Assembly (NCBI GenBank): GCA_015039315.1
Contig: WIDE01000111.1
Coordinates: 1 to 12,659, forward strand
DNA length: 12,659 nt
Reading direction: 5' to 3'
Source of the DNA: Clavulina sp. PMI_390
Taxonomy: Eukaryota; Basidiomycota; Agaricomycetes; Cantharellales; Hydnaceae
Each line of letters starts with the position of its first letter. Position 1 is the first letter of the stretch. The translations under genes and the position numbers were made by a program. Shown here piece after piece: positions 1-12,659 of this stretch. Below the pieces are notes generated by a model. The model searched no databases. It had not been told where the DNA came from and saw nothing but the letters and a program-made list of their open reading frames with translations.

Positions 1-398
1 TTAGCAGAATCGATAGCAAGATCATGTGCATCAAGACGTGAAGGGTTGGATTGGGCATTACTGCGCGATCGTTTGGTAGGCGGCGGTTGTAGAGGTGGTT
101 CATCTGGGCCGACGTGAAGCCGACGCCGAAAGCAAGTTCAGCCAAAACGCACTAAGGAATGGACGCTAAAAGCGATGGTCAACGTACCAGACTGATCTGA
201 AGGTCGTTTTTGGTAAGTAACGGCCGTCGAGGAGGTTTGAGGGAGTTCAGATTGGAGGGTCGTGGAGGGCGGAGCCTGCTCGCGACGAGACACTAATCGC
301 GGATATAACGAATCAGCCACAGACGCGCGCTGAATCCTTTAAAGGTACTCACAGATATTATTAGCAGGTTTGGAACTGGAACGAGAGGTAGCAGGCAT
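1..398 (-). CDS. USP-family gene, left copy (5' end only, runs off the left edge)
   Basis: This is the 5' end of a paralogue of the central gene. Three exons can be built: 398-353, 292-188 and 103 to the left edge, with introns 352-293 (gtgagt...attag) and 187-104 (gtacgt...cccag). The first exon is 46 bases, exactly as in the central copy, ends in the same phase and uses the same gtgagt donor. That agreement, plus the matching upstream DNA, fixes the start codon. The visible peptide (about 84 residues) is low-complexity: Ser/Thr/Pro/Gln-rich, with PPLQPPPTKRSRS as a proline run followed by a basic patch, like the tail before the protease domain of the central gene. It seems to lack counterparts of central exons 3 and 4. 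The protease domain would lie outside the window, so a USP function is inferred from paralogy only. The 84-base second intron is the least certain junction. Confidence 0.7.
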
Positions 399-508
399 AA
401 AGGAGGACGTGGATGGAGAAAGTGAAACAGAATCGAGCAAAGGGCGGACTTTTTTTCGACAAGGGAGAGAAAAAGTGGATCGAGCGCGATGAAACCAGTC
501 CCAGAGTG

Positions 509-630
509 TCTAGACGCGTCCTGCAACCGTCTATCGCGTGGTTATAACGAGAAAGACGTTCTGGTCGACGAGGGAGGGGATTCAATGCAGACTCGTTTGA
601 GCGTGGGAACTGGCCTCTGTTCGTTCGTTG
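509..630 (-). promoter_or_regulatory. Conserved core promoter/leader block of the left copy
   Basis: This 122-base block matches 9572-9693 with about 8 mismatches and no gap, and lies at exactly the same distance from the ATG in both copies. On the minus strand it holds a TATA-like TTATAA (547-542), whose near edge is 144 bases upstream of the ATG. Then, 23 bases closer to the gene, comes ACGCGT (519-514), which equals the MluI cell-cycle box bound by MBF-type factors in other fungi. Whether the block is a true TATA promoter or part of the transcribed leader (see the short ORF at 542-640) cannot be decided from sequence. Confidence 0.5.
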
Positions 631-640
631 ACCCGATCAT
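542..640 (-). CDS. Possible short upstream ORF in the leader of the left copy (32 codons)
   Basis: A short ORF starting MIGSTNEQRPVPTLK and ending SSTRTSFSL lies on the same strand as the protease gene, 143 bases upstream of its ATG. The central copy has a matching ORF with the same C-terminus and stop. Between the two, three of the five changed codons are synonymous (GGG/GGA, TCA/TCG, AGG/CGG). This pattern is mildly in favour of translation but rests on very few sites. It only makes sense if transcription starts upstream of 640, which would rule out the TTATAA here as the TATA box, because that sequence contains the stop codon. Confidence 0.3.
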   Translation of the reverse strand: MIGSTNEQRPVPTLKRVCIESPPSSTRTSFSL

Positions 641-946
641 GGTTCAATGAGAATGGCTCATCTCCAGGGGACCTCCATTGCATGAGCGATTGATTGCATG
701 GAGTATTAGAGACAGCTTTATCATCTGCTGAGATTGCTGAGGAGGCGAGGCTGGGATAAATATGGAATGAGAGCAATGTGTTGGGGTGTACACAGTAGGC
801 GTCGCGAAAGGTTCGCCCAAAGCATCCCGTTGGGAACACAAAGGAGAGTTCTCAAACATAACGTGAGAGGGAGGAGGGGAGGGAGGTAGAGAGGACGCTC
901 TGGAAGACGACGAGGAGTGGGCGAATCATGATGCAGTATAATTGAT

Positions 947-1000
947 GTGGCTGGGGCTGTCATCCGCAATGCATCGCAGTACCATATCCGGATGTGCAGA
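947..1000. repeat. Distal upstream repeat block, left unit
   Basis: About 54 bases that match 9997-10050 closely, including GTGGCTGGGGCTGTC and CCGCAATGCATC. The block sits about 550 bases upstream of the ATG in both units, but the DNA between it and the core block is poorly conserved. Read on the minus strand, one frame gives IWYCDALRMTAPAT here and IWYFDALRLTAPAT in the central unit. It could be an upstream regulatory element or a remnant of an exon. Weaker similarity continues to about 1052, ending at a CACCAC run. Confidence 0.55.
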
Positions 1001-1052
1001 GTCGAAATTTTTCGTAGACCTGTTCTCTTGCATCTGACCACCACCATGAGCA

Positions 1053-2450
1053 CAAACTGAGAGTCGTCGGAGCACTTTAGCTGCTGCCACTGAGAGTTTG
1101 AGTGTGAAATGAGACTTGCCGGGTGACGAACGACGGTGGAATGAACGGACCTCTATTACACCATTGCGTCGTAGAGCTTGGGTAGCTCTCTTATGGCCGG
1201 GACGACTCTATCGTCTATAATATTGTGAAGCTATTGTCAGTGTCTTGTCAGTGTCGCTCACGGTGACGAAACTTGCCAGACACTCACCTTGAGGAAGCTA
1301 CTTCTGCATCGAATCTTGAGAGCTACCTGGTATTAGGACTATCTCGCACTATGATAGATACTGGAAGATCTCGTGAGTCTTGACCTGATAGCATAGGAGA
1401 GAGTGTCGAGGACCACTTACCCCACGAGAACCCCCGACACCGACGACAATGGACCCACGAAAGATTTCGCTTCAGCTAAGAGCTACAGATGGGCTACAGT
1501 CACATCTATGAACCGAGAATAATAAGTTCCTCGATCTCAGTGATTTGCCTGCACAATGAGTCTGGGACAACTATACCTGGGTGCGATGGCTCCCCCTACT
1601 TGACGATCTATTCGCGCTCGCGACTCCATTGGTGGCGAACGGTCCTAGGTCCTCTTCTTCTTCGTCAGAGCCCCAGGGATGGTCAGTTTTGGCTCGTTTC
1701 TGTTGCTCAGAGTTCAGTCGGGTGCTTGCGTTGGAAATCGTTGCGCGTCCTAACACCTGGGAGGACCAACACGTCAAGATGAGCGAAGTCTTGGGCAAAT
1801 AAATGAGATAAAATAATTATATTCACCCTGGACGCTACGAGGCATGCTTCGACCGGGGTTCTTGGTGAAGTTGGTCATGTGGAGCAGGTGTGTTGGGCGA
1901 AAACTGTCGAGTTCATCCAGGACGCAGAGAGTCTGCGATGAAGTCGAGCAAGTTGAAGAAGAGACAATACCGTGCGGCTCAGGCGGGTCTATGGGTTTGT
2001 CTTGGTGATGGAGGTGGGCCATCGAGTTTGTCTGAGGGTGCCATCGTCGGCGAGAGCGATGTTTGGTGGTGTTGCGCGCGCGATCCCGAGTCAATCTCCT
2101 GACGGCCTCGATCTCTCGCCGACCACTTTTTTTTTTCAAGTTTCTCCTTGCTGTAATAACGATATCACACTATCTGGGAAATCGATTTGCTTTGGTGAAA
2201 GGCGAAGGGAATCGTGCCCCAAGTACAATGTGATGTGATGGGATTCGTGCATACTATTCACCACAGATACAACCAAAAGTCGAGCGAGAAATATTGAATC
2301 TGAGTAGCTGGCTATTAATATACTATAAAATGATCCAAAAGGCCACGTTGATATCCTGGGGCGACCACTTTCTTGGAGTCATTCAGTTGAAATGCGAGGA
2401 ATCGTTGGGCAAGTACTCCACGTCTCGTACCCATCCTGGCCCTCCTCCCC
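1053..2450 (-). other. Spacer of about 1.4 kb with possible decayed minus-strand exons; no secure gene
   Basis: No complete gene can be built here, but the minus strand has protein-like pieces next to good splice-like sites. One is an exon-like piece about 1700-1577 with KRAKTDHPWGSDEEEEDLGP, ending CAG then gtatag. Another is about 1482-1421 reading LLAEAKSFVGPLSSVSGVLV, followed by gtaagt. A third is about 1325-1287 ending in gtgagt, which joins across an intron ending in aatag to LHNIIDDRVVPAIRELPKLY and a stop near 1157. Phases between these pieces do not all agree, and stops interrupt the parts further upstream, so this may be a degenerate gene or chance. A tandem duplication of an 11-base unit (TTGTCAGTGTC) lies at 1234-1255. 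The 2140-2450 part shows nothing recognisable. Confidence 0.25.
1234..1255. repeat. Perfect 2 x 11-base tandem repeat
   Basis: TTGTCAGTGTC occurs twice with no gap. It lies inside a candidate intron of the possible decayed gene and looks like a simple slippage duplication. Confidence 0.8.
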
Positions 2451-2454
2451 CAAT

Positions 2455-2665
2455 CTTCCACACTCGACTGCAGATATTCTCGGTCAAGGGAGAGTCTCTT
2501 GTGGTTCAATAGGTGGTCAATCTATGTGTTGGAGAGGTAATTTGAAGTAGAAGCCCGTAAAAAAATCGCAAAAAATCGCAAAATTTTCGTTTTTAACACG
2601 CAATGCTCCGTGCAGAGCGTGCAGAGACGACGGGCCATTTCACATACAAGTGAAATAACTCTGAC
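2455..2665. repeat. Repeated 3'-flank block with A-rich core and palindrome (between left and central genes)
   Basis: This matches 11781-11990. Fixed points are CTTCCACA (2455) and GTTGGAGAGGT (2528), which are 73 bases apart in both copies. Next come an A-rich stretch with repeated AAAAATCGC, then TCCGTGCA. A 9-base tandem repeat CGTGCAGAG x2 (2609-2626) and an inverted repeat ATTTCAC/GTGAAAT (2637-2656) follow. It could be part of the array unit or a separate dispersed repeat that landed in both spacers. No coding potential was seen. Confidence 0.6.
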
Positions 2666-3561
2666 GCTCTCCTGCCATTTATTTTGACATATCTTGCGTT
2701 CCTTTCAGATAATTGTTGTAAAGTCTCATGGGGAACTCGTCACCCAACAACCTTGAACATCTTCTTCAGAGCCGCTCCCAGCGACTCCATGCTGATGAGA
2801 TAGGAAACTGTCGTCTGATCACTAATTATATGCACAAAAAAAATCCACTTTAGAGCCATACGGGCGAGAGGGGATCAGAATGGAAGGAAGCAAGGTAGTT
2901 TTACATTGCTTCCGATGGCCTTTCACCAGAGTGCTCATCTTGACCACATGTACAGGGAAGTCATTATGCTTCGTCAAGAACTAGGAACAGGGGGCATGTA
3001 AGGAATGTAGCTATAACCATGTAAGGCCTCCGCTGCAGCGACGCCGCTTCACTCAATAGTATGAAGATTTGCGTTCAGCTTCGCCCAGACAAGCGCGCCG
3101 TCCCCTTTCCTTTAGCCGACAACATGTGTTCAGCAAGTAATCCATAGCTTTTGGTGACACACCACCTCATTCCAGTATCTATAGTATAGTAGTCAGAGAA
3201 CAAGGACTTCAATCGATCGATTACCTAGAAACCTGCCCGAATTCCTTCCTTCCCTCACTCTCTCTCCTCTCCTCTACCTCACGTCTCTCCCCCTCTACCT
3301 CTCGCTCCCTTCCTCCTTGCTCAATCTCTCTCGGCGCGTCTTTGACACATTTTCTCATTTTCCGTCTCACTTGCCACTCGCTCGACACAACCCTTAACTC
3401 AAGATTACCTCACATTGTCACGCCTAACGCCCCTCAATCGTCTCATGGTCATTATATTAATCGATTACTAGCTACTCTACTCTAGGAGCGTAGTAACTTT
3501 CTAGTGACCTCTTACGAGACATTGCTAGTTACATACAGAGCGATAAGTAAGGAATAACAAG
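2666..3561. other. 3' flank of the central gene with an extra segment of about 640 bases
   Basis: From the shared GTTGGAGAGGT to the stop codon there are 1034 bases here but only 393 in the right-hand unit, so about 640 bases have been gained here or lost there. The segment has an 8-base hairpin (GGAAGCAA/TTGCTTCC, 2886-2913), a minus-strand ORF of 39 codons (2859-2740) of no recognised family, and the pyrimidine-rich tract at about 3236-3390. No terminal inverted repeats or transposase were found. The final bases before the stop (agagcgataa, 3537-3546) match the right-hand copy and may belong to the 3' UTR. No canonical AATAAA was found downstream of the stop. Confidence 0.5.
3236..3390 (+). 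repeat. Pyrimidine-rich (CT) tract
   Basis: About 150 bases are mostly C and T on the plus strand, with runs such as CTCTCTCTCCTCTCCTCTAC. Such tracts are common in fungal promoters, but no plus-strand gene follows before the end of the central gene. It falls in the segment that is missing from the right-hand unit. Confidence 0.6.
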
Positions 3562-6500
3562 CTAAGACGGACTCTGCCAATTCACCACCATGGTGGCATT
3601 ACCAAGAAGGGAGTCGCCCCCTTTCGCTTTCCCCAGCTTTGTGTTGTGGAAAAAACAAGCGTAGATATGCGCCCGTTTGATCATAAGCGGCAAGTGCCAA
3701 AAGTCTGGGTAATTCTCGCCAATGGTGCCCGAGTGCTTTCCACCAACCGCTGTATGAGCCCTTAGGCTGTCCCCCACACGTTGCAGCAGCCCCGGGTCCG
3801 CTGGCAGCAATGACATCGTGTCAGGGTACCACATTCGCGGCAAATGAACGAGGTGATTTTCCCTCGGCTTGTAATCAAGCTTGTTGCGTTTAGAGCCAGA
3901 TGGCTGCGACACCGTCACTAGCGTCCGAGGACACTGAGCACAGTCCACCTGCACAATACAAGCATGCGGGATCGAGCCAGGAAGGACCTCCACAAGCCCA
4001 AGAGGTATGCCAAGATCGTATACATTCTCAAAAATGACATCTTGATCGCGATCGAGCCCTAAAACAAGGCGCGCGAGAGTATCGTGAGCCTGGAATCTAG
4101 CAGACTCTGTGGGGTCGTCGGGGTGGTAAATCACAAACGACGCATCCCAAGCAGCTTGGCAGGGGGGGGACATGAGAGGAATCACCACTCCAAGTGGTAG
4201 TGCGTCAATCGATGGCTCTTGAACAAGACCAGTTTGCTCGAAAAAGTCGGCAGGAAGAGGACGGCAGAGGGGATGGGAGAGCAACTCATGGGGAGTCAGA
4301 ACGGTCATTGATTTGAGCATGCCGGCCTTGTTCATTTCAGGAATCGAGAGCGACTTTTTTGGATTGGAGGCGGAGGGGCAGCAATGTTTTGTGTTGCGCG
4401 AGACAATGCACACATCACCACATGACGTGCATTGAGCAAGTGAAAGAGCTGAGTCGCTCGGCTTGGCGTCCTCAAAATTGGGGCGGGCAAGCAGTTCGAC
4501 GGCTTTCGAGGTCGTAAAAATGTTATCCCATCGCAGACAGAGGAATTTTTCGTCTGTACGAGCATCCTCATCAGCAGCATCATACTCGGCCTGGAGCCTC
4601 TCAATCTCGGTCTGGTGTTTGAGGCGCATTGTCCGTGAATGATTCTTGTTCTGCTCGAGTCGAAGTGCTCGGCCCTCCTCTGTGGCATTGCGGGCTCGCA
4701 GCGCTTGGTTCCCTCGAATGCCATCCAAAGATCGAATGATATTTGTGCCCTCCTTCAAGCGTACGAGGTGATCGAGCAGCTCGGCCGAGGTCTCAAAGGG
4801 GTTGGGGAGAGGATCGGGACGGCAACACTCGAGGGCTTCATCTCGCGACGCAATGACCTCACTCGCCCATGCCTTGCGCGCGTCGGATTTGGCCTCGTGC
4901 GGCGCTTTTTCTGCGTCCTCGTTTCCTAGATTGGATGTTAGACAATCGGGTCAGATGATAAAGCAACACCAAGACGTACCAACTTGCGTAGCGCGCGAGA
5001 CTCCCAGTGAGCCTTTATATTCAAATTCCGCCGTGGTGCCTTGATCTTCGGCCTGCTGTGCTCGACGACTCCAGCTGCTCCGCATACGAGTGGATTTGAC
5101 GATGGTGTTATGAGAAGAAATCTGCCAAAGAAGAATTAGATATAATAATATGGGCGTGAACTACATGAAGGACTCACTTGGGATTTTTGAGATCGAATGA
5201 GCTCTGGGAGTCCATACTTCTCCCATTCCCGCTTAATAGCGTCAATATCGGCCCGTTCCAGACTCCTCCCATTAAGGGCGGCGCAGTAAGAGGTTGCAAT
5301 GCGGTACTCGAGTTTCACGAGGAAGGAACACTCCTCGACGCGAGGGAGGATAGTAGGGTCGTATTTCCCTTGGCCAGGCTCAAGATCCGGGAGAGCTGCA
5401 GAAGTCTTCCCTCCCGCCAAGCGACAGATGAAGGGCTCGGCAACGTGGTCAAGAAATGAGAGCTTCTCCCAATGCGGCCACAAAGCTGCAAGCTTCTTTG
5501 ACCACTCGCTGGGCTCAACAGATTTCAGAGCTCTGACTAGGTTTGTAAGGGTAGGATTCTCAAAAAACTCCTGGACTTCCCCATTCCAAGGGACGTCAAG
5601 CATGCCTGCTAGTAGCAAGCGGGTCATCTAATGGAGATTCAAATAAGACTTGGTTTATTACAACGTAAAAAGAGAAGAAATTTGCATACCGGCGCGCCCC
5701 ATATGAGCATGAGCATAGGGTGGATCCTCCAGATTGTTGCTGCAAGACACATGACGTTTGCATGGTAGCTTTCAGTAACACCAGAGTATGGGAAGAGGTT
5801 TTGGTAAACCCAATTATTCCAACTAATGAATCGAGTCCAGTCCTTGCGTGGCAAGGATGTCCACGTCGATCGTGGAGGGAGTTGGTTAGCACGCTCTGAC
5901 TGATCATGCCAAAGCCTACAAATTGATTCAGATTTTGGTAAACAAAAAGGAAGCGTTCAAAAGACCTACGTCGGGCCTGGGCCAGCACCCTCCTCAAACA
6001 TACTCCCCTCCTTCAACTCGCTCTGCGTAATATCCTTATACGCGCCCATGGCGACGACTCTACCGCTGTTAGACAGACCAAATCCTGTATTTCCAGCCTT
6101 GATAGTCTCAAGGACAAGGGGATTTGATATTCGCTCACCACCGTTGGAAAGGTGGTGCTTGTACCCAATGTCCATGATGGCCGCGACATTAGCGCGAAGC
6201 TGCGCGAGCTCGGGGCTATGCTGGTCGTTGACAATGGCGGGAGAGTATACCGGCACTTCAGCATGAACCTTTGAAAAGTGGTCAGATGACAGGAAGTAAC
6301 ACAATTAGAGAAAGACGTACTCGAGCCTCAGCCGCCAGTGCCTGTGGTGACATCGAGTCCAGATCCAGCTTTGAAGACTTGAACCCTCCGTGAGCGCTAT
6401 TAAGCAGATAGGGTTGCCCAATCACCACCACCAGATTCTCAGCAAGCTTGGTCTGCTTTGCAATACTCGCCGGAGATTGACCCTGGGTGACACGAGGGTA

Positions 6501-9461
6501 TGTCTCCATAACATAAATCTCCCAGTCGTCCTCACTGCCACTGTAGGCTCTGAGAAAGTTGCCTAGACGACTCAGTAGATGGCCAGCCATGGCAGCAGCA
6601 AAATCCCTGGAGTGTCGCCCCCAGGGATCTTGCGTTGATGTTTCGCCAATGTACCAAAATACAGCGCGCTTGTTGGGAGGGAAGGATCTGAGCTCATGCT
6701 GGACCACGCGTGCCCAGACAAGATCGGCAGGGTAGTCAGTGATGTAGCGTGCGATCGCCACCAGTGCTCTCTCAACACTAATAGATAGCGATCGAGCGTA
6801 ACACGGATGCGGGTGCGTGGAGAGTTCGCCCTTGTGAATTCTGTTCAGCAGATCGAGATGATCTGCAGGATACGTGAGCAGACTATTGGTAGCAAAAGCG
6901 TCAAGGAATCGAAGCATTGGTGGGTTCCCCACTGCTTCCTCATAGAGCGGCACAATTTCCTTGTCCTTGTCCCCCTCTAGCATAAAGGCTCGCTGTCGTA
7001 GAACATCGAGGCGCTCGGCGGATGAGACATTGGCCAAACTTTCTGAGAGTATCTTGCGATGGCGCTCAGTTTCAGACGCTTGCTGAGCCTGCCCCTCAAG
7101 GTGATCCATGTTCTCGCGATTCTTGCGCTCTTTGGTGATGTCAGTGATTGGCCGGCGAGCTTTGCGACGCACGCGTCGGCGAACATTTTTGGGGTCAGTG
7201 GAGAGGTCAAACTGCTCGCTCCTGCGCAGAGCAGTCGCACTCGTCATTGGATAGGTCTCGTCGATGTCATCATACTCATCGCACTCATCGCACTCATCAA
7301 AATAATCGAAATCATCATCTAGCATGAACTCGGCATCAAGGGAAGTGGCTTCCAGTGCAGCATTGAGGGTCTCTACAACAGCACTGTCAGGCGCATGAGT
7401 AGAGAAGACAAAGTCATTCGGAGCATATGGAAGATTAGGATGTTTTCGATATACGAGGAAGGTGGCAGTGCGAGGAATGGAGTCGAGAGGGTGGAGAAAA
7501 CCGGGCAATCGAGGATCTTGCGTGTTGGGAAGTGGGATCGAAACGCGATCATTCTTCAGCACCCAGCGGTCGCTTTCGGGTACCACGGCAGTATAATGCG
7601 CAGCATTGTCAGTCCCATGAACATTCACGATACCAGCAAGATATCCAGACCACTATTAAAGACCATGTTAGCCTTTGACGAGCAAAGACATGCAAAATAC
7701 ATACCTCTAGTTCTGGAGCAGCGTTACGAGCAGGAACAATAACCGAAACTGTCCTATTGAGGCTTAGAGACTTGTTGTCGGTTCCGCCTCTGTGTTCAAT
7801 TATGCGAGGGATTGAGATGAAGATGTGTTCGCCCAAGGACTCGACGCGCGATGGCAGCACATGATTCGCATGTGGGCACCGCTCCGGTCGGAAGAACTCG
7901 ACTCCCTTACTATCACTTACCACCCAAGCATCCAGAAGCTGCTGGACCGAGTCTCCTCGAGTGCGGTCAAGTGTGATGTATGGGAGCTGCGCTCCATGCA
8001 CGAACGGGAGACCACAATCAACACATATGTCCGACTGCAATCTGGCCGATGGTCCGATATCATCCTCAACATCTGAGAAGAAGTAGTTGAGAAAATGGGC
8101 TGGATCCTGCTGGTGATTTACGTTCCATTCTTGAATAGCACATGCCGCCCGCAGCACAGTAGGGTTCACGACAGGGACTGTGCTCTCCATCTCTTGCAAG
8201 GTATAATGGAGAGCGCATGAGAAGCGTAGGTGATCACAGTCTCCACCATGGTGATGGCGAAACAGGTCACAAACTGTAAAAATTGACTGGAGGCACGAGT
8301 TCATGTAGCAATTCGTGCCTTCGTTGAACAGCCCTGGTGTCCGCGGCCACTCCTTGTAAGGCGGCACGTTACTTGAGGCAGTAGGTGCAGGAATCTCGAT
8401 ATGAGCATCTTGTGTCGATGAGCGACTCTGAACCGCCACTGCGGTCTTCTTCTCCAGGCCAAGCCCATCGATTTGCTTCTTCTCATGTTTCTGAAGACTG
8501 GCGCTTGTCTTCTTTGGCGTTGTATTGTCGAAAAGTTGCTGGGATTGATCCCAGTTGGTACTCTTCTTTGGCAATCCAGCAGCAGGAGGCGACAAGGTGT
8601 GGGGTTTCGAGGAACAGGGTGATCCGAGAGGGTCAGACAGTAGAGGGATTAGGTCGTCTTGACCTCCGCCATCGCTTTGCGCAGGTCCGAGCTTGCGTTT
8701 TTTTCTCGGAGGCTGGCAGCTTGTCGACGATGTTGGATCAACGGAGCTTGACAGATGTGGAGGATGAGGGGGTTTCGTAGTAGACTGGCGTGGAACATCA
8801 CTCTGGTTCTTGACTCTCCCGTCGTTGGTTTTCAGAGCATCGGGAGCAGATTTGGGATGGGGAGCCGAGGCAGCGCGAGGCGCAAGAGGTTGGTTCTTGG
8901 GTTTGTTTGGAAGCGGAGTGGGAGGTTGAGGGGGGTCTATATGAGTGCGTGTTAGGGACTAGAAAAAGAAGAGTGCTAATGAGAGAAACGCATATCGTAC
9001 CAAAATTGGGGCGGGCGGCCGGCAGGGCGAGTGGGGTCGACGGAGCATTCTGACGCGTCTCGGCAGTATCAACGCGAGGCTTTTCAACAGAACTATCGTT
9101 TGCGTTGCCTAAGAGTCATTTAATGTTGGTTTGAGTGAGACAAATGATGCAGCACGCCATAAGAAAGCATTCGTACCTGAGGCGCTTGAGGGACGCTGGA
9201 AGGGTGCTGGGACGTGCTAAAAATGCAATCGACACGTCAGAGAATAAGATAGTGCCATATATCAATGAGAAAACATACAGATGGACGAGATTGCGCCGTC
9301 ACAGATCCCCACAACAGCCGGGATTGCTTAAGACCATCGCGCCCTCGCGCAAAGTCTGGTGCTATAGTGAATGAATGAGCAAAAGGGGAGGTTTTAAATG
9401 TACTCAATGACTCACGGGTCGATTTTGAAGACTTTGAGAGGGACTGGGCCTGGCGGGCCAT
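3562..9461 (-). CDS. Large multi-exon USP-type deubiquitinase with nuclear signals and a possible GIY-YIG-like region (complete)
   Basis: Predicted cysteine protease that removes ubiquitin from proteins, probably nuclear. Exons: 9461-9416, 9361-9279, 9216-9177, 9108-9001, 8936-7705, 7652-6321, 6268-5970, 5915-5690, 5627-5178, 5121-4980, 4925-3562; 5322 bases, about 1773 residues, in frame across all ten introns (52-68 bases). Visible parts: Pro-rich tail with NLS PPRKKRKLG (169-176); USP domain about 290-575 with Cys box GLFNEGTNCYMNSCLQ (Cys302, Asn297), QQDPAHFL (368-375), a single CxxC (397, 400), His box NAAHYTAVV (His522), WVLKND (Asp538) and the usual last strand ATFLVYRK; acidic tract 609-635; basic tract 658-670; charged helix about 672-745; WYIGET...GRH at 836-850; unrecognised region about 950-1320; coiled coil about 1402-1447; Cys cluster 1485-1502. 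Start chosen because exon 1 matches the left copy in length, phase and upstream DNA. The USP call is strong; the remaining two thirds have no assigned function. Intron 4 is the weakest junction. Confidence 0.85.
7271..7298 (-). repeat. In-frame 9-base repeat coding the acidic tract
   Basis: About three copies of a 9-base unit (GATGAGTGC on the coding strand, the last one changed to GATGAGTAT) encode DECDECDEY inside the acidic tract that follows the protease domain (residues 609-635). The unit is a multiple of three, so copy-number change would keep the frame and only lengthen or shorten the acidic linker. Confidence 0.75.
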
Positions 9462-9571
9462 GAGCGAGGAAGAGGATCGGGGAAGGGTGAGGGAATTCGG
9501 GTGAGGGAGGGATTTTTTCTCGGCAAGGGAAGGAAAATGGAATCGAAGACGATGGTATGGGTCCTGACAAC

Positions 9572-9693
9572 TCTAGACGCGTCCTGAGACCGTCGATCGC
9601 GTGGTTATAACGAGAAAGACGTTCTGGTCGACGAGGGAGGGGATTCAATGCAGAGTAGTTTGAGCGTGGGAACTGGCCGCTGTTCGTTCGTCG
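9572..9693 (-). promoter_or_regulatory. Conserved core promoter/leader block of the central gene
   Basis: Counterpart of 509-630, at a constant offset of 9063 bases that also holds for the start codons. TTATAA is at 9610-9605 and ACGCGT at 9582-9577, with spacing to each other and to the ATG identical to the left copy. The conservation, in a region that need not encode the main protein, suggests that the copies share one mode of expression. The ACGCGT site would fit G1/S-phase expression if MBF binds it, but that is inference from other fungi. Confidence 0.5.
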
Positions 9694-9712
9694 ATCCAAA
9701 CTCGCCATTCAT
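9605..9712 (-). CDS. Possible short upstream ORF in the leader of the central gene (35 codons)
   Basis: Counterpart of the short ORF at 542-640. It starts MNGEFGSTNEQRPVP, ends SSTRTSFSL, and stops at TAA (9607-9605). The first few residues differ in number from the left copy, but the rest aligns without gaps. The peptide is Ser/Thr/Pro-rich and matches no family I know. The frame is also open further upstream, to an ATG at 9988, but the left copy has a stop just before its short ORF, so only the downstream part is shared. Confidence 0.3.
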   Translation of the reverse strand: MNGEFGSTNEQRPVPTLKLLCIESPPSSTRTSFSL

Positions 9713-9996
9713 GGATGCACGATTCGTAACCCTGGGTATCATCAAAGCATTTGAGACACTTAGTAGAGGCGGGTATATGAGTGAGATAGCTTTGTCGAGA
9801 TCGCAGACGGAGGGGGGAAGAGGGTGTCCGACGTCGAGGAACGGATTCGCGCTGGGTCGTCGCCCAAGAGTATGGCAGGGGAAGGAGGGCTTGAGACTGG
9901 GGAGGGAGCATCGAATATGCGATGTAATAACTGAAGAATAAACAATGGACGTTTTTGCGTGGGTGAGGAGGGAGTCGTGCGGGCAAATCATGCTTG

Positions 9997-10050
9997 GTGG
10001 CTGGGGCTGTCAACCGCAATGCATCAAAGTACCATATGTGGACGCGAAGC
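9997..10050. repeat. Distal upstream repeat block, central unit
   Basis: Counterpart of 947-1000, containing the self-complementary ATGCAT and the shared ACCATAT. The spacing to the ATG differs by only 13 bases between units. Homology fades after about 10110, just past the (ACC)n run at 10093-10106; beyond that the spacers of the two units no longer align by eye. Confidence 0.55.
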
Positions 10051-10110
10051 ATATTCAGATTTTTTTTTACTCAACATTGTCTCTTGCTCTTTACCACCAC
10101 CACCATCATT

Positions 10111-11780
10111 GTCACTACGACAGCATTTGTTGACTGGAACGCGTCCGCTGTCCAACATTGCCACACCGTACTGAGGCGAACGATCGACGACGAGACTGAG
10201 CTCTATACCCTGAGAGGCCGCAGTTCCCTTGGTCCTTTGTGGCTACATTTGAGAGAGATTTTTTCATATGAGAAACTTCTATTGCTGGTCCCACTGCTCT
10301 ATTCAAAGGAATTAGCGTTTGAGTCCTGAACGATACGCGCCATCTGATGGCATTGAGAGTGGAGACGTACCTGCACGTTGCCTCTCAGCTATGCTCAAAC
10401 TAATCTGTAATGAGAACTGGCCCCTAAATTTGCTGATGGTACGCGATCATTCAGCAGCGCGCACTTATCGAGACAGGACGCCGTAGACATGCTCACCGAA
10501 TGCTGGACTCGCGAAGCACTGTCGACGTGGGACGTGGCCGGAAGCCTTCTACTTGTTTATGTGAGCCCTAGTGTGGTCTTTATCGCTGCACCATCTGAAG
10601 CTGTCAGAGCGAGTTGAGCTGAATTGAGAACATGAGGCTTGCCTTTGGGGCATGACGTGTGCTGCGTTGTTCCAGCTGCATGGATACTTGCGCTAGATGG
10701 TGAGGGAGACGTATCTTGGTAGTTCCTATGGTCGCTTTGCCAAGAGCTTGAGGCCTTGCTGCCAGTTCAGGTGGTGTCTCGGTGTGTCTCGGCGTCGCTG
10801 TGGAACAAGTTGTTCTGGGGTCAACTAACGGCGGTGACGAGAAATGCTCAAATGCTTGCAATATTCACCCGAGATGTGGAGAGTCTGCTCTATGGGTCGA
10901 GTCCCCTTGGTCGGTCGAGCATCCGCGCAAGGATTTGTTGGACAAGGTGGAGACTGTTCAAGGACGGCGGCAAGTGCTGGTCGTATTGAAGGTAGTAGAG
11001 CGATGAGGGTTTGGGATAAGCCAGACGATTGGAGAGAGCTAGTCTACATTCGGACGATTTGGGTAAAAGTCGAGCAGATCTGTTGATGAGGCGCGGTGTT
11101 TGCGAGTGTTTCGTGCCACAGGGTCTAGTCCTTGCTCCCGGCCTCGTTTCCCACCTTTGCTTCCTTGCTGCTTGCGATAAGGTCTATTTATATATGTCCT
11201 CGGCTCATTTGGCGTGAATGAATATCGCTCGCTGACATGAAGTTGTGATGAGATAAATTTGAGTGTGTGAGATTTGGAGAGCCAACCGTCGTCGATCTAC
11301 CGCCTTGCCCCCCACCTCGACTTGAGAGTGTTATGGCCTGGATTCTATTGCGATGGCTCTCCATAATGACTTGAATATACTCGATCTCTTGATTAGCTTG
11401 TCTCTATGTATTCGAGGCGGTTCTGCCTTCCAAGAGACCTCGTGTGCACCTTTCCCCAACAGATTCCCCCTATATTTATCGTTTCTAGCTCACGATCGAC
11501 AATGAGAGTCGATCCTAAATGTACTACGGATCGAGACCGTGTGTGTTGTTCATAGTGAATCTAATTATGAGTTGAACTAGTAAGCTTGAATGATCCCACG
11601 ACTTTGGCTAGAGTTCCTCCACGCTGTAAGGATGGAGACATTTAGGCAACGATGGCATTAAATACAGCAAAATAAACAGAGCGAGCTAGCTTATGTTTAT
11701 TGACTGGGAGGCGAGGCGGGTGGCATGTACCAAGTAGGGGGTTGAGGTTGAGTCCCCTGTCCGCCCCCCTTCCCCCCGAC
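10111..11780. other. Spacer of about 1.65 kb, no secure gene
   Basis: Nothing here could be assigned. It occupies the same place in the array as 1053-2450 but does not align with it by eye. On the minus strand there is a good TATA-like sequence (11194-11184). About 150 bases further on lies an open stretch (about 11044-10833) that includes ALLPSIRPALAAVLEQSPPC but has no suitable ATG. Several plus-strand ORFs of 62-80 codons overlap it, with no family resemblance. The region may hold a decayed gene or be plain spacer. Confidence 0.3.
11184..11194 (-). promoter_or_regulatory. TATA-box-like sequence (TATATAAATAG)
   Basis: A near-consensus TATA box on the minus strand, with no convincing coding sequence downstream of it. 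It may be chance in a locally AT-rich stretch, or mark the promoter of a lost gene or a non-coding transcript. Confidence 0.2.
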
Positions 11781-11990
11781 CTTCCACAATTAATCACGAC
11801 TACTCAGGGCCTTTAGGGACTTTTCAGCTGTCATATACGTCGTTGATCTACGCGTTGGAGAGGTGAATTGAGGTGGAGGACGTGAAAAAAATCGAAAAAA
11901 TCTGAAAAATCTCGCAAAAAGATGGCAATGGTCCGTGCAATCCGTCGCAGTGTATAAAAAGTTGAAATTTGCACTTGCAAATTATTTCCT
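11781..11990. repeat. Repeated 3'-flank block with A-rich core and palindrome (before the right copy)
   Basis: Counterpart of 2455-2665. GTTGGAGAGGT is at 11854, followed by the A-rich stretch and TCCGTGCA. In place of the ATTTCAC hairpin there is a different inverted repeat, AATTTGCA/TGCAAATT with a 2-base spacer (11966-11983), nested within GAAAT...ATTTC. The 9-base tandem repeat of the left copy is absent. The block ends about 260 bases before the stop of the right copy; the DNA between (11991-12246) shows only the shared motif next to the stop. Confidence 0.6.
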
Positions 11991-12246
11991 TCAGCGAGGT
12001 TGTACCTGCTCTCTCACAATACAAACTCCTTTACACAAATGAGGGTGTTAAGGGCGTGAAGGAGAGATACACAAGTTACGGCGCAACAAGCTAACCGCAT
12101 ACAACATGTTATAGGGTACTAAACGCAAGATGGATTCTACATAAGAAGCATAGCTAATATGCTGCATAAAAAGTTCGAATTCATGCCTCGTAGCAACAGC
12201 TTGCAGGTCTCAGACGTATAAAGAGCGATAAAGAATGAATGAGAGG

Positions 12247-12659
12247 CTAAGATGGACTCTGCCAATTCACAACAGTGACGGCATTACCAAGAAGAGAGTC
12301 GCCCCCTTTCGCTTTCCCCAGCTTTGTGTTATGGAAAAAACAAGCGTAGATATGCGCCCGTTTAATCATAAGCGGCAAGTGCCAAAAGTCGGGGTAATTC
12401 CCACCAATGGTGCCCGAGTGCACTCTATCAGCATCTCCATGAGCCCTCAGGCTGTCCCCCACACGTTGCAGCCGCCCCGGGTCCGCTGGCAGCAAGGACA
12501 TTGTGTCAGGGAACCACCTTCGCGGCGAATGAACGAGGCGAGATTCCTTTGGATTGTAATCAAAGTCGTTACGTCTCTTGCGAGACGGCTGTGAAACTGT
12601 CACCAGCGTCCGAGGACACTGAGCGCAGTCCACCTGCGCGATGCAAGCATGAGGTATTC
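12247..12659 (-). CDS. USP-family gene, right copy (3' end only, runs off the right edge)
   Basis: This is the last 136 codons plus TAG of a third copy, open to the window edge and aligned with residues 1638-1773 of the central protein without gaps. By eye about 113 of 136 residues are identical. The last 50 residues differ at only two positions, while short patches around QPSRKRRND and AHGDADRVH have changed almost completely. The Cys triplet pattern HACIAQVDCAQCP is kept. The protease part lies beyond the right edge, so function is inferred from the central copy. The 3' flank also matches without a gap for at least 25 bases past the stop (agagcgataa at 12222-12231 and at 3537-3546). The reading frame is intact here, so the copy may well be functional. 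Confidence 0.85.
   Translation of the reverse strand, partial: IPHACIAQVDCAQCPRTLVTVSQPSRKRRNDFDYNPKESRLVHSPRRWFPDTMSLLPADPGRLQRVGDSLRAHGDADRVHSGTIGGNYPDFWHLPLMIKRAHIYACFFHNTKLGKAKGGDSLLGNAVTVVNWQSPS

Follow-up and report, generated by a model that had tools for sequence, protein, structure and literature searches.

The first 12,659 bases of a 107,942-bp contig of the basidiomycete Clavulina sp. PMI_390 (Cantharellales; WIDE01000111.1, here called C15; assembly GCA_015039315.1, 39.4 Mb in 301 contigs), a stretch to which we refer as the window, hold one complete gene for a giant deubiquitinase of the USP type, with the ends of two further copies on either side of it in the same orientation. 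Relatives of this gene form a second tandem array on contig C275, where two neighbouring copies with nearly identical ends appear to have exchanged the middle of the protein, and we regard this module exchange, which we read from sequence comparison, as the strongest new result of our analysis. The array is more interesting for the exchange in C275 than for the tandem repeat itself. We give about an even chance to the reading that these genes are a lineage-restricted Clavulina family of giant modular USP proteins that grows in tandem, swaps its middles and plays a role in intracellular conflict.

Apparent module exchange between tandem neighbours

C275 carries two full copies, C275_147k and C275_156k, and a truncated one, C275_140k, in a head-to-tail array whose periods are 8752-8754 and 8942 bp. 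The full copies are 92% identical in the USP part (302 amino acids, aa) and 93% identical in the C-terminal part (412 aa), whereas their middles share only 29% of residues in the linker, 40% in a segment that we call GIY-YIG-like and 28% in the rest of the middle. At the nucleotide level no match at E 1e-5 joins the two middles, which span 145,969-148,384 and 154,721-157,138, or 2416 and 2418 bp as delimited by the blastn blocks. Since ends that are 92-93% identical enclose a middle of near-equal size that is 28-40% identical, at least one exchange is needed to bring the two genes to their present state.

The middles fall into two classes that are 28-30% identical to each other over aa 941-1270. 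Within this interval, the middle of C275_147k is closest to those of the paralogues on C35 (50%) and C247 (34%), while that of C275_156k is closest to P0002 (48%), a Clavulina protein from the nr database, and to the complete copy in the window, copy 2 (47%). Copy 2, which belongs to class I, is itself 56% identical to P0002 and 29% identical to each class II member. Trees built from six of the seven rows of the family alignment (C204 was left out) conflict, with the C-terminal part joining both C275 copies and the middle separating them, at a Shimodaira-Hasegawa-like support of 1.000 on each side. The copies differ in which modules they contain: C275_147k has a middle of another class than its neighbour. 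Two points limit this result: the exchange is seen in one pair of C275 genes, and the window contains the middle of neither copy 1 nor copy 3. If module exchange holds, a eukaryotic family of intracellular enzymes would be diversifying by module swap rather than by point mutation, with the removal of ubiquitin and a possible nuclease combined in one polypeptide.

A dispersed family with degenerate members

The preliminary description, which was made from the window alone, proposed looking for the same unit elsewhere in the genome, and there is indeed a gene family there, with members on at least five contigs in addition to forming the C275 array. Assembly searches with three open reading frame (ORF) pieces from copy 2 gave 6, 7 and 8 matches, the place of the query included. 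Counted as genes, C15 and C275 have three each, of which two on C15 are stubs, and C35, C247 and C90 have one each; three distant relatives on C204, C27 and C202 can be added. Copy 2, the C35 gene, C275_147k and C275_156k have no stops in their spliced alignments. Others are incomplete: C275_140k has the USP end only, and its middle and C-terminal parts were not found down to position 134,000; in C90 the USP end is interrupted by one stop, and reading on as far as base 8323 revealed no middle; C247 retains the middle and the C-terminal part, likewise with one stop, but the piece read shows no USP before them. The nr protein P0002, which comes from a 26,697-bp contig of Clavulina sp. PMI_390, likewise begins past the USP part. 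Modules thus exist separately too, which one would expect if genes are born and lost while recombining. P0002 has no match above 59% identity in the assembly examined, from which its contig must be absent or in which it is masked, and therefore the family is larger than counted here. A second nr model, P0003 (DL93DRAFT_1788360, 1706 aa), equals our C275_156k model over all 1684 residues of the latter and has 8 extra residues at the start, 9 inside and 5 at the end. With comparisons among the C275 copies set aside, identity between paralogues is only 31-50% in the USP part and the C-terminal part.

No relatives outside Clavulina were found in protein searches that each scored about 8000 candidates, but these searches are of limited reach, as the one led by the USP missed even P0002 and another returned two proteins despite there being more members in the assembly. 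A scan of contigs, which covered bacteria and archaea only, gave no relatives. These results are suggestive only of a family restricted to Clavulina. They do agree with the earlier remark that tandem expansion is not expected of a housekeeping USP, in that the distribution is unlike that of a housekeeping gene, every relative found belonging to Clavulina.

Of eight family loci, five are no more than about 10.5 kb away from the end of their contig, and one of these five is on a contig of just 11.8 kb. The corresponding binomial P is 0.004, for a threshold picked after the data had been seen. The repeat (TTAGGG)4 does not occur in the whole assembly and is hence uninformative on proximity to telomeres. 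The bias towards contig ends fits an assembly broken at repeats as well as it fits a subtelomeric position. Beside the C275 array lie two direct repeats (C275:134,082-134,920 and 136,214-137,046, 66% identical over about 846 columns) that encode another protein.

The complete copy and its USP domain

The spliced model of copy 2 encodes 1773 aa, and a spliced aligner fed with this protein gives identical introns; the paralogues are homologous spliced genes as well. The protein thus bears out the predicted size of more than 1700 residues for a USP-bearing product. Its parts follow in the order of a disordered N-terminus, the USP domain, an acidic/basic linker, a central module (about 500 aa) and a C-terminal part (about 430 aa). 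PF00443 scores 38.6 bits on the exon 5 ORF and 43.8 bits on the spliced protein, where its curated cut-off is 23.9, and the best sequence matches of the family profile in the PDB are USP46, USP12 and Ubp8. Catalytic Cys, His and Asp, judged by eye, are present in all nine USP-bearing members read, among them C90 with its in-frame stop. From these sequence features we take the presence of a USP domain in copy 2 to be certain.

Copy 2 resembles USP/UBP deubiquitinases, which we take to be family C19 of MEROPS, in its catalytic Cys, His and Asp boxes and in a finger with CxxC. It differs from them in that the domain is fused to about 1170 further residues, the central and C-terminal parts, for which no Pfam family exceeds its cut-off, NCBIfam and PHROGs yield nothing informative and the searches made gave no protein from a source other than Clavulina. 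The C-terminal ORF by itself has no Pfam match at E<=1, and Zn_ribbon_3 appears at E 0.27 in one of five family members.

A central segment with GIY-YIG-like motifs

GIY-YIG nucleases are defined by the active-site residues Y, R, (H), E and N, in that order. The central module has CYAR, YIGET, RH, E and N-x3-GG, and 11 columns are invariant across seven aligned paralogues, with the motif columns Y, G, T, R, D, E, N, G and G among them. Y28, R40, E99 and N112 of this alignment (A4) are invariant in all seven; the H is present in five and replaced by Q in two. An eighth paralogue, on C202, was only partly read and was omitted from the seven rows; it has YAGWS. None of 2000 shuffles of the protein contained the motif, the pattern having been written after the sequence was seen. 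What the segment shares with GIY-YIG nucleases (PF01541; the phage Seg homing endonucleases) is the succession of YIG-x-T, R-H, E and N-x3-GG, and CYAR, further upstream, may be the first strand. It is unlike them in going unmatched by the profiles searched and in that its two predicted strands would be parted by a helical insert of about 30 aa. In a low-confidence AlphaFold2 model of the segment, made with three rows, CYARSL and YIG form strands on either side of this insert, and helices and then a third strand follow.

A series of searches weighs against this assignment. PF01541 matches none of seven members at E<=10, and its sole match in the assembly is at C1:511596. NCBIfam and PDB profile searches with the middle gave no match to a GIY-YIG domain, and the best hit among PHROGs was one family of unknown function, at E 0.013 in one of seven members. 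The mean predicted local distance difference test (pLDDT) score of the model is 50 (a model of P0002 with six further rows reaches 38). Its fold matches were nitroreductases, NIPSNAP and a sliding clamp, which are weak and which we take to be noise; GIY-YIG nucleases do not head the lists, a phage GIY-YIG protein coming at rank 25 with E 3.1 in one of them, which excludes nothing. When segments of the protein were compared by hhalign with a profile of eight phage Seg-type sequences, the GIY-YIG-like region came first of 34, although barely ahead of a USP segment (14.8 vs 13.7) and at a probability of 0.4% and E 0.13-0.14. We call the segment only GIY-YIG-like because profile and fold searches do not recognise it. 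On balance we still lean towards a true GIY-YIG fold, a view that rests on the order and conservation of the motifs.

The tandem array in the window

The preliminary description had proposed at least three large protease genes in tandem. The head-to-tail repeat, its positions and its orientation all hold, but the outer copies are stubs without a protease domain, and the count of three such genes is accordingly one that we infer. The left edge of the window is the end of the contig at base 1, and the right edge adjoins a run of 12,287 N. Start codons at 398 and 9461 are exactly 9063 bases apart, as had been stated, and both open a 46-nt exon 1 that ends at GTGAG; C275_147k also has an exon 1 of 46 nt (start at 150,884, first intron from 150,838). 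Stop codons at 3562 and 12247 are, again exactly as reported, 8685 bases apart. In the stub of copy 1 the splice sites are assumed. Copy 3 shares its 136 codons with copy 2 at 83% identity in protein and 86.8% in nucleotides.

Two repeats connect the copies, one at the 3' end (12218-12657 vs 3533-3972, 86% identity over 440 nt, E 9e-148) and one upstream of the start (9510-9697 vs 446-634, 84% identity, E 4e-51), and both are far above chance. That both flanks are repeated, as the earlier description had it, is true of short patches, such as the 29 nt past the stop codon that are alike in copies 2 and 3 and a spacer patch of about 190 nt at 65% identity (2439-2624 and 11763-11950), while the remainder of the 2.5-2.9 kb spacers cannot be aligned. 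A 300-nt piece of the 3' repeat occurs in two places in the assembly, both of them within the window, and close DNA copies of the window repeats were not found elsewhere in the assembly, save for one weaker block on C35, at 73% identity.

The best conserved stretch is a 126-nt block upstream of the start codons of copies 1 and 2, within a wider region of 189 nt that is 84% identical; it exceeds the 136 shared codons in conservation. This block may be a regulatory element or a conversion tract. The C35 block (336,934-337,068) is related to a second upstream block, matching window positions 947-1046 and 9970-10102 over about 100-135 nt, and sits roughly 1.6 kb before the first exon that could be aligned in the C35 paralogue. 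Its presence at both places suggests, as far as sequence goes, a promoter element shared by the window genes and the C35 paralogue.

Age of the copies and selection on them

Synonymous (dS) and nonsynonymous (dN) divergence were estimated by the Nei-Gojobori method and are averages over shared parts, not site by site. Copies 2 and 3 differ by a dS of 0.29 and a dN of 0.105 over 136 codons, for a dN/dS of 0.36. For C275, dS is 0.085 and dN/dS 0.16 over 360 codons of the C-terminal part, and the USP exon of the three copies gives a dS of 0.22-0.25 and a dN/dS of 0.11-0.14 over 215 codons. Neither the recent expansion nor the diversifying selection that the preliminary description considered agrees with these values: dS is moderate, and on average purifying selection acts on the coding parts that the copies share. 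Between the two full C275 genes, dS is 0.085 in the C-terminal exon (144,664-145,968 and 153,416-154,720) and 0.22 in the USP exon, which suggests gene conversion that homogenised one end later than the other.

Possible origin and role, and alternative explanations

Recombination between the flanking homologous blocks, in the form of unequal crossing-over or ectopic gene conversion, probably both duplicates whole units and swaps the middle of about 2.4 kb. Least certain are the activities that would follow. The USP end might recognise or trim ubiquitin-tagged partners and edit ubiquitin signals, the exchangeable middle might bind, cut or recognise nucleic acid, and the family might then serve in defence against foreign DNA or in discrimination of self from non-self between nuclei. 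We consider a conflict or self/non-self role plausible, no more. Bacterial polymorphic toxin systems (PMC3482391) combine a constant body with an exchangeable toxin module, often a nuclease, diversify by recombination and act in conflict; the exchanged module is C-terminal there and an immunity gene lies alongside. The Clavulina family is like them in carrying an exchangeable module on a constant body (C275_147k vs C275_156k, one pair), and unlike them in that the exchanged module is central, that no conserved spacer ORF was seen that could be an immunity gene, and that the host is a eukaryote. It was a comparison of the two window spacers, which a gene without conservation would escape, that showed no conserved ORF. 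The boldest version of the idea, a basidiomycete counterpart of polymorphic effectors in which a deubiquitinase body bears an exchangeable nuclease-like recognition or killing module, diversified between tandem paralogues for self/non-self discrimination or genome defence, is one that we consider doubtful. We found no published fusion of USP and GIY-YIG in a thin check of open-licence literature, nor, in the same literature, a relevant paper on a lineage-specific basidiomycete expansion of ubiquitin carboxyl-terminal hydrolases; the main text of PMC7550596, on mycorrhizal genomes, mentions neither Clavulina nor PMI390 nor GIY-YIG.

A simpler possibility, which we hold to be rather less likely than the modular conflict family but worth serious attention, is that this is an ordinary tandem family without a role in conflict, in which a lineage-specific USP was duplicated locally long ago, recombined now and then and has a middle that evolves fast. 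Moderate dS and purifying selection would be expected under this explanation, and the degenerate members C247, C90 and C275_140k, which have an in-frame stop or lack modules, are typical of birth and death. Drift alone, however, cannot yield the nearly identical ends around a divergent middle of near-equal size in C275, although the need for at least one exchange does not by itself imply a conflict role. It is also conceivable, if improbable, that the genes belong to a large DNA transposon, as its cargo or its enzyme, and that this element occurs in tandem as well, as their dispersal over several contigs, often near contig ends, and their nuclease-like motifs might indicate. Such an element sits poorly with 10 introns and a low dN/dS, with the absence from the window of inverted repeats of at least 25 nt (exact seed 14), and with the absence of transposase, Rep and reverse transcriptase from Pfam scans of the pieces given; moreover, the divergence of the paralogues outside the C275 group shows that they are not recent copies. 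Least probable of all, in our judgement, is an assembly artefact or a pair of haplotypes set one after the other. The window does begin and end at edges of the assembly, as one might expect of an artefact, but a nucleotide divergence of 13%, a dN far smaller than dS and spacers that mostly cannot be aligned speak against it, as does the independent C275 array, which lies in stretches without N. The modular family with tandem growth and exchange of its middles is the reading that we retain, at the strength given at the outset.

Features of the window and neighbouring genes

Table 1. Positions of the array copies, their parts and the upstream blocks within the window.
Feature	Position	Strand	Remarks
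Copy 1, 5' end	1..398	-	46-nt exon 1 plus two more putative exons; 84 codons, open up to the end of the contig; protease domain not visible
Conserved block, copy 1	509..634	-	111-236 nt upstream of start; 118/126 nt identical to 9572-9697
Second upstream block	947..1046	-	about 100 nt, repeated at 9997-10102
Complete copy (copy 2)	3562..9461	-	11 exons, 1773 aa, no stops
Copy 2, exons 1-6	9461-9416, 9361-9279, 9216-9177, 9108-9001, 8936-7705, 7652-6321	-	spliced model
Copy 2, exons 7-11	6268-5970, 5915-5690, 5627-5178, 5121-4980, 4925-3562	-	spliced model
USP (C19) domain, first part	7705..8334	-	exon 5; Cys box GLFNEGTNCYMNS (Cys302), finger CxxC and CxH
USP domain, last part	7542..7652	-	start of exon 6; DNAAHYTAV (His522), KNDR (Asp538); Pfam match ends here
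GIY-YIG-like segment	6321..6803	-	aa 787-947; CYAR...AVFWYIGETS...RHSRD...AENL...LLNSAHGG; named from motif only
Rest of central module	4980..6268	-	exons 7-10; class I
Last exon, C-terminal part	3562..4925	-	CxxC Zn-ribbon-like patch (aa ~1485), conserved C-terminal block
Conserved block, copy 2	9572..9697	-	111-236 nt upstream of start
Copy 3, 3' end	12247..12659	-	last 136 codons and stop, then run of N

An open frame of 4273 aa at C15:12250 is an artefact of the N run. Searches for transfer RNAs and for Rfam families at gathering level found none. To the right of the N run, in C15 24,947-107,942, the copy 2 protein finds no further copies at E 1e-3. From the 50 ORFs of at least 150 aa there, ten were given to Pfam and six of these matched: an Egh16-like protein, the exonuclease domain of a mitochondrial DNA polymerase, two pieces of a YTH protein, a LIM domain (barely over the cut-off) and SWIB. 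The array thus borders ordinary genes on this side.

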